From an uncultured Psychrobacter sp. (GTDB lineage Bacteria > Pseudomonadota > Gammaproteobacteria > Pseudomonadales > Moraxellaceae), in NCBI GenBank assembly GCA_947489525.1, contig CANLDW010000001.1, positions 558,001 to 622,000 on the forward strand: 64,000 nt of DNA, given 5' to 3'. The notes below the pieces were generated by a model that was given only the letters and a program-made list of their open reading frames with translations, searched no databases and was not told where the DNA came from. The position numbers and the translations under genes were made by a program. Positions 46,932 through 49,898 of this stretch are shown one piece after another. Within the stretch, counting starts at the first letter, position 1. Each line of letters starts with the position of its first letter.

Positions 46932-48050
46932 ATGAATAATTCAAACTCAAACCCTGCTATCAGCGCTTGGCTGGCTGAGGGGCAATCTAGTCAACGCGAT
47001 ATGCTGGAGAGCATGCAAGCACTCAAAGCTCAAGCGTCTAGGCCGTTTAAGGTTATCGCCTCACATCGTCAATACCGCCCTGAGATCTTTGAGTGCGCTG
47101 ATAGCGTTTATAGAGAGCCTATTGCAGATACTGATACTACTGGCAATGCTGACACTACCGAGACGTCGCCGCGCTGGCAATTTGTTTTAGAACAGGCTAT
47201 CCAAAATAATGCAAAAGTGGTGCTGACGGGGCGCAATAGTATCGATTACGAAGTGCATAGAGATAAATTTACGGACGCTGGTATTCGCCTATTAACAGGA
47301 GCCACTAGCGTGCCGATGCTGCGTGCTATCGATGATAAATTTGCCTTTATGCAGCACTGCCAAGCGCATGATATTCCAGTTGCTACAGCGTGGCGCTTTG
47401 ATAACAGGGATGAGCTTGAGCAGTTATTGGCAGAGCATGGCAATCAGCCATTATGTGTCAAGCCCGTCAGCGGTATATTTGCGCAAGGGTTTTGGCGTTT
47501 GGACACATCAAAAGCTATTGATGAGCGTTTTGATAGCTTTGAGCATTTATTCTTCACTGATAGCAGAAAAATTACCGTAGCACAGTTCATCAGTTCCTAC
47601 GCGCACAGTCAGATGGTACAGGAGCGCCCTATTCCGATGCTGCTCATGCCGTATCTAGCAGGGCAAGAGTACTCTATTGATGTGGTCTGTGAAGCAGGTG
47701 AGGTGCTCGCGGCTATCACTCGCCATAAGACAGGTAAGATACAACACATCGGCTATGACACAAACGTTATGGCAGTCGTTATTCCGCTAATAAAAGCATT
47801 CGATTGCGACGGTATCGTCAGTGTACAGACCAAAGCGGATGACAGCGGTCAGCACTGCGTGCTTGAGATCAACTCTCGACCCTCAGGGGGCATCGGCTAT
47901 ACCAAACACAGCGGCGTGGACTTAACCCAAGTGGCGTTTAGCTATTGGTTAGGGCTTACGGACAAACCTAAACTGGCTGATATCACTGCGCAAATTACAC
48001 CCTGTCAGGTGCGCGCGTTTATGACCAGCGTCAAGATTGAGCCTGAATGA
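46932..48050 (+). CDS. ATP-grasp enzyme of the Ter-associated pathway
   Basis: About 372 residues. A Rossmann-like start (PFKVIASHRQYRPEIFECAD) leads into an ATP-grasp fold: CVKPVSGIFAQGFWR (ATP-binding Lys and Gly-rich loop), MLLMPYLAGQEYSIDVVCEA (GxEYSxD), and CVLEINSRPSGGIGYTKHSG (metal-binding E-N). Such enzymes ligate a carboxylate to an amine. Anantharaman, Iyer and Aravind predicted that one acts in Ter systems to build a nucleoside-like metabolite. I chose ATG 46932 because AGGA precedes it; the frame extends to a TTG at 46875 without domain similarity. The partner biosynthetic genes lie 6 kb downstream (53892-59749). Confidence 0.83.
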   Translation: MNNSNSNPAISAWLAEGQSSQRDMLESMQALKAQASRPFKVIASHRQYRPEIFECADSVYREPIADTDTTGNADTTETSPRWQFVLEQAIQNNAKVVLTGRNSIDYEVHRDKFTDAGIRLLTGATSVPMLRAIDDKFAFMQHCQAHDIPVATAWRFDNRDELEQLLAEHGNQPLCVKPVSGIFAQGFWRLDTSKAIDERFDSFEHLFFTDSRKITVAQFISSYAHSQMVQERPIPMLLMPYLAGQEYSIDVVCEAGEVLAAITRHKTGKIQHIGYDTNVMAVVIPLIKAFDCDGIVSVQTKADDSGQHCVLEINSRPSGGIGYTKHSGVDLTQVAFSYWLGLTDKPKLADITAQITPCQVRAFMTSVKIEPE

Positions 48051-48070
48051 TCCTGATTTGATAGTTCAAG

Positions 48071-48177
48071 TATAGTCGAACCACTATTAAAGTGTTACAG
48101 CGTTAGACTCGTTTAGCCTACTACTGTAGTACTTGCACTCGTCTGCCTTGTACCATTTTTAATATTGATTGACTATA
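48071..48177 (+). repeat. 107-bp inverted-repeat-ended intergenic element, copy 2
   Basis: Three mismatches to copy 1 at 3574-3680, same length and same strand, again with TATAGTC at one end and GACTATA at the other. It lies directly behind the ATP-grasp gene and touches the AT-rich leader of the CRISPR array. Confidence 0.9.
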
Positions 48178-48331
48178 AAACTGTCTGTTTCACCCTAAAT
48201 TTACCCTTATTTTCGCACTCTTTGCAAGTTATTGATAAATATAACTTTTTTTCAGCGATAAAAAAAAGGGTTTTTTAAAGGTTTTGCCGCCCATCCATTG
48301 CAACTACATGCTTATAAGCTTTATAATTCTT
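48178..48331 (+). promoter_or_regulatory. CRISPR leader
   Basis: A 154-bp AT-rich stretch containing a run of T, AAAAAAAAGGG and TTTTTT, directly before the first perfect repeat. Its side of the array holds the intact repeats and the far side the decayed ones, the expected polarity. I could not place a promoter within it with confidence. Confidence 0.65.
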
Positions 48332-48595
48332 GTTATCCACCGCATAGGTGGCTTAGAAAGTCAGCATGATTTTGCACAATGCGATAGTCTTGTTATCCAC
48401 CGCATAGGTGGCTTAGAAATTGTTACTCGCTGCTTACATAAGTTCGTGCAGGTTATCAACCGCATAGGTGGCTTAGAAAAACTCAACAAAAGTGTTCTCT
48501 AAATCAATACGGTTATCCACCGCATAGGTGGCTTAGAAAGTAACCTGTAATCATGACATGACCGCGCCCACGTTATCCACCGCATAGGTGGCTTA

Positions 48596-48768
48596 TGAGC
48601 AGCGTTAAAAAATTGCACTGCAATTTTAGCTGCGCAAGGGAAATCCTTTAAATAGGATTTCCAAAAGTTATAATTACTAACGCAATTTGAATAGGAAAAT
48701 CGTAGATTTTCCCTTGCGATGGGCTGGACGTTTCCCAAACGTCCAGAAAACCCCCATCTCACACGCTT
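48596..48768 (+). mobile_element. 173-bp structured element inserted in CRISPR repeat 5 (copy E1)
   Basis: Begins TGAGCAGCGTTAAAA and ends CTCACACGCTT. It lies between the first 24 bases of the repeat and a second copy of ATAGGTGGCTTA plus GAAA, so bases 13-24 of the repeat are present on both sides: a 12-bp duplication. It has no ORF. Predicted stems: AAAATTGC/GCAATTTT, GGAAATCC/GGATTTCC, GGAAAATC/GATTTTCC (the last two enclosed by CGCAAGG/CCTTGCG), CTGGACGTTT/AAACGTCCAG with loop CCC, and GATGGG/CCCATC enclosing that hairpin. Inverted termini are weak. The family is not recognised. Confidence 0.82.
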
Positions 48769-48840
48769 ATAGGTGGCTTAGAAATACAAGCCATTCCAAT
48801 TTTAAGAACTCCTAAAGTTATCCACCGCATAGGTGGCTTA

Positions 48841-49013
48841 TGAGCAACGTTAAAAAATTGCATGCCAATTTTAGTTGCGCAAGGGAAATCCTTTAAATAG
48901 GATTTCCAGAAGTCATGCTCACAAACGAAATTTAAATAGGAAAATCATAGATTTTCCCTTGCGACGAGCTGAACACTTCCCAAGTGTTCAGACTACCCTC
49001 GTCTCACACACTT
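48841..49013 (+). mobile_element. 173-bp structured element inserted in CRISPR repeat 6 (copy E2)
   Basis: Same length, same insertion base and same 12-bp duplication as E1, but with many substitutions, several of them paired. The fourth stem is CTGAACACTT/AAGTGTTCAG and its outer stem GACGAG/CTCGTC, both changed on both sides relative to E1. The first stem is AAAATTG/CAATTTT. GGAAATCC/GGATTTCC and GGAAAATC/GATTTTCC are conserved. The insertion separates spacers 5 and 6. Confidence 0.82.
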
Positions 49014-49085
49014 ATAGGTGGCTTAGAAATTGCAGATGCTAACTTACTACCTGCTTTCAGTGTGGCCCCCACTTAGGGGTTTTTA

Positions 49086-49140
49086 GAATTCATAATTTAA
49101 ATAAGAAAACCATTATCTCACACACTTGTAGGTGCTTGAT
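49086..49140 (+). mobile_element. Deleted remnant of the 173-bp element in the terminal repeat (E3)
   Basis: After 24 bases of decayed repeat 7 come AATTTAAATAAGAAAA and TCTCACACACTT, which match the middle (AATTTAAATAGGAAAA) and the 3' end of E2. Then comes GTAGGTGCTTGATA in place of ATAGGTGGCTTAGAAA. About 130 bases are missing. The order of pieces is exactly that of E1 and E2. Confidence 0.6.
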
Positions 49141-49226
49141 ATAGCTTCTCTATGTGACTGCTACCCCTTTTTTAATCATCTACTCTATTCTTATAATTTT
49201 CACTTATAAACAACGAGTCCAAAAAT

Positions 49227-49898
49227 ATGTATAAAGTCAGCTTTTTAGTGCTAGTAGCTATTGCTTTGAGTGCTTGTAATTCAAAGACAGTAAGTGACGC
49301 CGATTTTCCAGTAGAGTCTGTCATGCTAGCGCAGTATACGGAGCCTAGCGATACTACCCTTTATTATAATATTGAAAATTCAGCACCTCTTGTAGTACAA
49401 ATCATCAATACTCCGCTGCCAGACACGACATTTAATGGCGTTCCTGTCAAGAGCACTAAGTCGCAAACTATTACTAGGCAAGGTGAAACAGAAATGGAGC
49501 GCACCGAGTCCATATTGTATTTTCAAGAGTCGCCTCTTAAGTACATAGGATCGGTATCAAGCGATGAATATGAAGTGGCGTCAAATCAAACCCCTATGCC
49601 AAAAAAGGCTAAAATAGGGGACTCAGGTGACGTTAATCAATCCAATTTATGGACAGATGCGAGCAAAAAGACTCAAACTAGTGACATGGTGGCTAAATGG
49701 TCTTTAAAGCCAGCCAATGATAATACTGCTTGGCTATGTGAGGATTTGGAGATCTACTATTTAGCCGAAGAAGATACTGATACCAAAGGCTCCTCTTGTG
49801 TAGAGATTAATCCAAATGGCGATATCCTTAAAAGTAAAATGATTGTCAATAGTATAACGGATGACCAAGTACAAGAGTTTGTATTTGTCAGCAAATAA
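49227..49898 (+). CDS. Putative lipoprotein of unknown function
   Basis: 223 residues. The start MYKVSFLVLVAIALSACNSK is a lipoprotein signal with lipobox LSAC and Cys at residue 17. The mature part is hydrophilic, Thr/Ser/Asp-rich, with two cysteines late in the chain (AWLCEDLEIYY, KGSSCVEINP) that could pair. No family recognised. It is more AT-rich than the surrounding housekeeping genes, which hints at recent arrival. A weak GAG site precedes the ATG. It faces the equally unfamiliar gene at 49917 tail to tail. Confidence 0.72.
   Translation: MYKVSFLVLVAIALSACNSKTVSDADFPVESVMLAQYTEPSDTTLYYNIENSAPLVVQIINTPLPDTTFNGVPVKSTKSQTITRQGETEMERTESILYFQESPLKYIGSVSSDEYEVASNQTPMPKKAKIGDSGDVNQSNLWTDASKKTQTSDMVAKWSLKPANDNTAWLCEDLEIYYLAEEDTDTKGSSCVEINPNGDILKSKMIVNSITDDQVQEFVFVSK

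Follow-up and report, generated by a model that had tools for sequence, protein, structure and literature searches.

A family of small two-hairpin repeats in Psychrobacter, located beside the hairpins of CRISPR repeats and at the 5′ ends of tRNA genes

In an uncultured Psychrobacter, two repeats of one type I-F CRISPR array are interrupted at the same base by sequences of the same length, and the question is what these sequences are and how they came to occupy that place twice. The array lies in the stretch of DNA analysed here, called the window (64,000 nucleotides; assembly GCA_947489525.1, contig CANLDW010000001.1, positions 558,001 to 622,000 of the forward strand; coordinates below count from its first nucleotide). 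An earlier note on this DNA had placed 173-bp inserts after base 24 of two 28-bp repeats, with an intact 32-base spacer (48785-48816) between them, and the coordinates as well as the spacer proved to be exactly as claimed. Repeat bases 1-24 are found at 48572-48595 and 48817-48840, the inserts at 48596-48768 and 48841-49013, and, to the right of both, repeat bases 13-28 (ATAGGTGGCTTAGAAA) at 48769-48784 and 49014-49029. The features are listed here, read from the sequence where no other basis is given.

48332-48359, 48392-48419, 48452-48479 and 48512-48539, forward strand: four uninterrupted 28-bp I-F repeats with 32-bp spacers (Rfam CRISPR-DR4)
48572-48595, forward strand: repeat bases 1-24 (ending in GGTGGCTTA), broken after CTTA
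48596-48663, forward strand: TGAG core, copy 1, with two hairpins (covariance model R1, 98.6 bits; this copy is among the 64 that built the model)
48664-48692, forward strand: linker of unit 1, resembling the sequence 3′ of most I-F copies in the genus
48693-48761, reverse strand: inverted, diverged core of unit 1, ending in CTCA (sequence and folds; boundaries by eye; layout shared with most III-B units)
48762-48784, forward strand: CACGCTT and right-hand partial repeat (bases 13-28, ATAGGTGGCTTAGAAA)
48785-48816, forward strand: intact 32-bp spacer separating the two units
48817-48840, forward strand: repeat bases 1-24 of the second interrupted repeat
48841-48908, forward strand: TGAG core, copy 2 (model R1, 94.2 bits; also among the 64)
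48909-48937, forward strand: linker of unit 2
48938-49006, reverse strand: inverted, diverged core of unit 2 (sequence and fold; boundaries by eye)
49007-49029, forward strand: CACACTT and right-hand partial repeat of unit 2
49104-49139, forward strand: decayed third right end and partial repeat (ending in TCTCACACACTTGTAGGTGCTTGA; 84% over 31 nt at 49104-49134, the rest by eye)

The two inserts are 84% identical to each other, and the two 214-bp units 87%. When folded with the repeat halves included and compared to 200 shuffles, the first unit gave a z of -6.9 as DNA and the second a z of -6.8 as RNA, none of the 200 shuffles being as good in either case; the structure of both 214-bp units is therefore not a matter of chance. 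The four uninterrupted repeats score 33.9, 33.9, 25.5 and 33.9 bits with CRISPR-DR4, below its gathering score of 35, and the array is assigned to type I-F by this match together with the I-F cas genes (Cas6f, Cas1f and Cas7fv) that adjoin another array of the same genome (G000). None of the three ORFs scanned around the window array is a cas gene. An Rfam scan of 47500-49500 gave no family above its gathering score on the insert, the sole hits there being asR3 (23.1 of 46 bits) and NRON (15.2 of 50). Past the last recognisable repeat, 49030-49139 likely holds a further spacer, then the decayed third right end and its half repeat.

The 173-bp stretch described in the earlier note turned out to be composite: alignment of 64 copies (86 candidate rows, 22 of them dropped) gave as elementary unit a 68-bp core with two hairpins. 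In the 173-bp long form, some 29 bp of linker join this core to a second, diverged one in inverted orientation. In the short form the left end is present and the inverted right end absent, the inverted terminal pair being found in the long form only. The core starts with TGAG (TGAA or TAAG in some copies), followed by a five-pair outer stem around an A/T hairpin, by CGCAAG and by the second hairpin. Over the 64 copies, 18 of 21 pairs show two-sided changes and the share of paired cells is 95.2%; none of 500 shuffles scored as high on any of five measures. The duplication of 12 bp, which the note had reported for both copies, is only one form, since the match amounts to 18 bp (hairpin and CTTA) in the short I-F form and to up to 17 bp in III-B arrays; lengths vary by form and site, and neither 12 nor 18 bp was retained as a constant target duplication. 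The reading of GAAG after the core as a remnant of the repeat's GAAA was also dropped, because copies borne by REP sequences carry RAAG at the same place. In two species a second core is nested within the second hairpin of a first one, with the same structure (L128, 1667-1793; L058, 1035-1161).

Both boundaries of the core are supported by a site outside CRISPR arrays, present in two genomes (G074 and G021), where a bare core lies between long direct repeats, of 53 bp in G074 (perfect) and 58 bp in G021 (53 of 58 identical). The left direct repeat stops exactly at TGAG, and the right one starts where the core ends. As the two loci are orthologous, they are one site, not two events. Among the copies classed below as "other", a direct-repeat score of 10 was reached by only 6 of 69 (control 0.9%), and most show none; nine short I-F rows have a corresponding offset at 53-57 bp. 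Comparison of the linkers of present I-F copies with their own upstream spacers gave no match, tandem units aside.

How widespread is the core? With the 173 bp as query, the window's own genome returned 17 matches, mostly partial and chiefly to the first 60-95 bp; the covariance model gave 20 matches in this genome and 24 in another (G035). At a stricter cut-off, eight further genomes of the genus, picked for their many hits, had 9-17 model matches each, and a family-wide search with stricter filters found 0-17 per listed genome of the genus. When the query also contained the repeat halves, blastn found a match in 52 of the 60 Psychrobacter genomes sampled. In the family search, matches came from 30 of 119 genomes and 3 of 16 genera, one of these genera being represented by a single borderline hit.

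The 227 model matches correspond to 193 distinct copies, a non-random sample, part of which was fetched by the I-F or III-B junction pattern and whose tRNA copies include orthologous sites of several genomes. Of the 193, 57 copies lie within 5 nt of a tRNA gene, 47 in CRISPR repeats (33 in I-F, 14 in III-B, the latter including L300 of G041, a lone repeat remnant) and 89 in neither class, at least 7 of these being second cores within array units; secondary cores some 73 nt away from a tRNA were put in the "other" class. Near intact repeats, only 7 model hits are off the junction, all of them second or nested cores inside a unit.

The 33 I-F copies lie after repeat base 24, that is, four bases past the stem. 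The exact junction, CACCGCNNAGGTGRYTTA directly followed by TGAG, was found without mismatch 39 times, in 15 of 105 genomes of the genus; intact I-F repeats (1753, the sum of listed counts) occur in 31 of the 105, among which are 14 of the 15 junction genomes. Scanning 84,980 species for the junction returned 12 stretches, all from Psychrobacter. In the window's genome, five of the 20 model matches start between repeat bases 24 and 25, in three arrays carrying different repeat variants (the window array, an array beside I-Fv cas genes and an array on contig C4), and one further match is nested. Flanking partial repeats mostly match the variant of their own array. L123 is mixed, and the exception is L059, the second array of G035, whose insert-bearing repeats are unlike its remaining repeats and similar to those of G035's other array. 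Of 42 I-F junctions parsed, in 22 loci, 31 are followed by another repeat (24 with the full hairpin, 7 with an altered 5′ arm); after the other 11, the next 420 nt, or as much of them as the stretch examined covers, contain no repeat. One genome (G087) has an array of 163 repeats with four near-identical internal units (segments 81, 150, 157 and 160 of 162), as well as one diverged unit at its end. The four look like copies of one unit; some spacers of this array are duplicated elsewhere in it, none of them beside the units. Linkers are similar in most I-F copies, and many of these copies therefore share a founder.

Arrays of a second kind, reached through model and blast hits in G026 and G035, have a 36-nt repeat (GTCTGAAAC..TCCCTGATTCYTAAGGGATTAAGAC) that is unrelated in sequence to the I-F repeat. 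Cmr2, Cmr4 and Cmr1 were detected above cut-off between or beside the G026 arrays (L338), identifying them as type III-B; ORFs similar to Cmr genes were recognised in G035 and G062 by eye only. Intact repeats of the 36-nt kind are present in 11 of the 105 Psychrobacter genomes, and cores in III-B repeats in six (G026, G035, G062, G063, G070 and G081), in the same orientation as in I-F. The 14 copies of this class start directly after the repeat hairpin or one base inside its 3′ arm (..AAGGG/TGAG or ..AAGG/TGAG). Most III-B units have the inverted core ahead of the next hairpin, and in most the linker holds GTCTGAMC, the start of the next repeat, so that the apparently duplicated right-hand hairpin is there the hairpin of the following repeat. 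Two III-B arrays of G026 (L258 and L259) share a near-identical spacer, after which the following repeat bears cores of different subfamilies; this suggests replacement or separate insertions.

The copies near tRNA genes (21 at tRNA-Lys, 18 at Val, 11 at Ile and 7 at Ala) are all antisense to the tRNA, and 53 of the 57 abut its base 1 exactly, the other 4 being off by one. At the tRNA-Val sites, all 18 distinct copies taken together, 97.4% of cells are paired and 6 of 13 pairs show two-sided changes, the stems differing between species with compensation; on four of the five measures none of 500 shuffles equalled the observed value, on the fifth 31 did. In tandem tRNA-Lys genes (L149, L148, L205 and others) a core precedes each gene, and about 80 bp, the tRNA and a few bases, are repeated on both sides of the core. 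Among 72 distinct "other" copies, CC stands directly before the core in 43, and GTAG followed by G or C within the preceding 32 bases in 19; several are located inside GTAG-type REP palindromes, for example GTAGGGTGCGCAGTGCGCACC/TGAA..CACC/CTAC. A stem of -4 kcal/mol or lower ends at the junction in 27% of 48 distinct "other" copies, against 10% in the background, with the CRISPR classes, of 3 distinct rows each, left out of account, and a universal rule of insertion at a hairpin foot was accordingly rejected, as it holds only in part outside CRISPR and tRNA sites.

These positions bear on the proposal of the earlier note that the element takes CRISPR repeats as its targets. The fixed base, the single orientation and the recurrence in 15 of 105 congeneric genomes agree with it, but 146 of the 193 collected relatives lie outside CRISPR junctions. 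The note would have abandoned its proposal had matches been mostly outside arrays at unrelated sites. Outside matches do exist, but their places are not random (tRNA 5′ ends, REP palindromes, gene ends). As to its suggestion that the repeat hairpin is recognised, a second CRISPR type, unrelated in sequence and hit beside its hairpin, fits; the I-F sites, four bases past the stem, and the only partial hairpin-foot placement elsewhere speak against it. Structure-guided targeting is plausible.

To what extent do the in-array copies descend from one another? An array of G035 (L058) is syntenic with the window array: both have the same ATP-grasp and MFS neighbours and two units around one spacer, which differs. 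Identity between the two window copies (84%) is no higher than between them and the copies of G035 (84-86%). Between these two genomes the neighbouring MFS gene is 72% identical, against 84-86% for the inserts. With the full array of G035, and with the one-unit remnants that follow the same ATP-grasp gene in G068 (L113) and G030 (L114), compared on the upstream side, the CRISPR locus at this place is old. A tree of cores (160 of the 193 copies, 69 columns; weak resolution, bootstrap not settled) shows 7 label changes for I-F, at least 5 of them forced by well supported branches, and 9 for III-B, at least 6 forced; such changes may reflect losses, and gene conversion among copies could inflate their number. 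With groups chosen after the tree had been seen, a single I-F clade was disfavoured (AU p 0.023, the decayed CRISPR remnant L065 counted in), and a single III-B clade was not rejected (p 0.11). Because I-F and III-B repeats share no sequence, at least two founding insertions into CRISPR repeats are needed. The earlier note had allowed for spread by recombination between repeats, and many in-array copies do share linkers and repeat-borne units, which fits such spread from a small number of founding events. As to a single ancestral duplication, which the note had named as an outcome against its proposal, some in-array copies do descend from shared ancestors.

We looked for a mobilising enzyme among Y1 transposases, the class searched, and found none. 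Eleven genomes gave 42 matches, 40 of them in the ten genomes other than the window's own; of 32 loci examined, 30 of them from those ten genomes, only one had a clear core nearby (L334, 52.6 bits). The two RAYT-like genes of the window's genome (L078 and L079) were rejected as mobilisers, being flanked by GTAG-type palindromes, not by cores.

We consider it probable that the inserts belong to a hitherto undescribed family of small mobile repeats, which came to lie beside the hairpin of CRISPR repeats on two or more occasions, multiplied there largely by recombination between repeats, and may persist because only the insert-tied spacer is lost. The family would consist of small, non-coding, hairpin-rich mobile repeats of Psychrobacter, either a 68-bp core alone or a pair of core and inverted core. 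Cores would have entered 3′ of the repeat hairpin in at least one I-F and one III-B event, and units of repeat, core and linker would have multiplied within and between arrays, probably mostly via recombination between repeats. Cas6 cuts at the 3′ foot of the repeat hairpin and leaves an 8-nt handle. In III-B arrays the cut would fall at the insert or immediately beside it, in I-F arrays 4 nt before it; neighbouring crRNAs should therefore keep their hairpin and handle, and the array would lose only the spacer tied to the insert. Minimum-energy folds nevertheless pair the two half-hairpins across the insert (window unit; L251), which speaks against access of Cas6. The same logic may apply at tRNA genes, whose predicted RNase P cut coincides exactly with the end of the core. 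Insertion could be the work of a trans-acting enzyme that finds its sites through folded DNA or RNA or through forks stalled at hairpins, and the long direct repeats of the G074/G021 site would fit template switching or target-primed synthesis. A bolder version has the machinery recognise folded nucleic acid in general (CRISPR hairpins, tRNA cloverleafs, REP palindromes) and set TGAG at the foot of the fold, Cas6 or RNase P then trimming off the core, so that arrays and tRNA leaders would be safe havens at the price of one spacer silenced per CRISPR insertion; this we put forward as a tentative possibility.

If each CRISPR type had received the core only once, long ago, and everything since were vertical descent, transfer of arrays and homologous recombination between repeats, with neither recent mobility nor targeting, this would account for the similar linkers of most I-F copies, for the synteny and shared two-unit layout of the window and G035 arrays, and for the equal distances among their copies (84% within the window, 84-86% to G035). 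Duplicated spacer blocks in the G087 array indicate that recombination does occur there, and the 11 of 42 I-F junctions with no further repeat within 420 nt or the stretch examined also go in this direction. Yet cores occupy equivalent places in two CRISPR types with unrelated repeats, are found at four kinds of tRNA and beside REP palindromes as well, and do not readily form a single I-F clade (p 0.023); partial repeats, moreover, mostly follow the variant of their own array, L059 and L123 being exceptional or mixed. We regard this history as rather unlikely. That the cores are domesticated RNA-processing or insulating elements, kept by the host at tRNA leaders and arrays (for instance to free the ends of stable RNAs) and spread by selection instead of parasitism, seems improbable to us: the exact abutment of 53 of 57 copies on tRNA base 1, the compensatory changes at tRNA-Val, and inserts better conserved between G000 and G035 than the MFS gene (84-86% against 72%) would be expected of such elements, but the orientation is opposite at the two kinds of site (antisense and 5′ of tRNAs, sense and 3′ of the CRISPR hairpin), 89 of 193 copies are in neither class (at least 7 of them second cores in array units), and most intact I-F repeats are without a core. 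Lastly, repeats are error-prone in short-read assemblies, and one locus (L060) is at a contig end of a MAG, but with the same junction in one-contig genomes (G002 and G087), in G035, assembled in 7 contigs, and in 15 species genomes in all, an assembly or repeat-collapse artefact is hardly credible.

Among known systems, the core has features in common with MITEs such as NEMIS/Correia and ERIC: it is small and non-coding, has inverted ends in its long form and direct duplications at one site. It differs from them in lacking a parent transposase among the Y1 enzymes searched and a constant duplication length, and in that many of its sites bear hairpins. Insertion sequences in CRISPR loci are mobile, transposase-coding DNA that also interrupts arrays; unlike the non-coding core, they do not, to our knowledge, keep to a single base next to the repeat hairpin across several CRISPR types. 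Integrative elements at tRNA genes encode integrases, use the 3′ part of the tRNA and restore it, whereas the core abuts base 1 in antisense and is too small for an integrase. REP and REPIN sequences with their RAYT transposases include GTAG- and CGTC-tagged repeats (PMC3733652) and REPINs (PMC3116915). They share with the core a short palindromic and interspersed nature, inverted pairs with a spacer, compensatory stem changes and non-autonomy. The core, however, begins with TGAG in place of the GTAG or CGTC tag, is 68 bp long with two hairpins, numbers 9-24 copies in the ten genomes searched singly and not hundreds, and is not associated with RAYT genes, sitting at tRNA 5′ ends and in CRISPR repeats instead. 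A search of titles and abstracts of open-licence papers gave no report of such elements in CRISPR repeats. Small mobile palindromic repeats are a known kind, but the same search turned up neither this family nor its placement at CRISPR hairpins and tRNA starts.

If the favoured reading of repeated entry followed by recombination is true, CRISPR repeats would be, beyond memory slots, places where a small mobile repeat settles and makes use of the array without ruining it. The inserts would then amount to a natural experiment on what a repeat tolerates, showing how insertions silence single spacers, and would tie the biology of REP-like elements to CRISPR and tRNA processing, a tractable case of possible structure-guided insertion. 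For array-calling programs, insert units are easily mistaken for degenerate repeats or array ends.

Plasmid and phage records gave no match to the 173 bp. The pattern of the core was seen in two viral contigs, at gene ends (L355, 1-200; L356, 2400-2470). In the former, about 43 bp of the gene end are repeated on both sides of the core; in the latter, the core apparently provides the stop codon.
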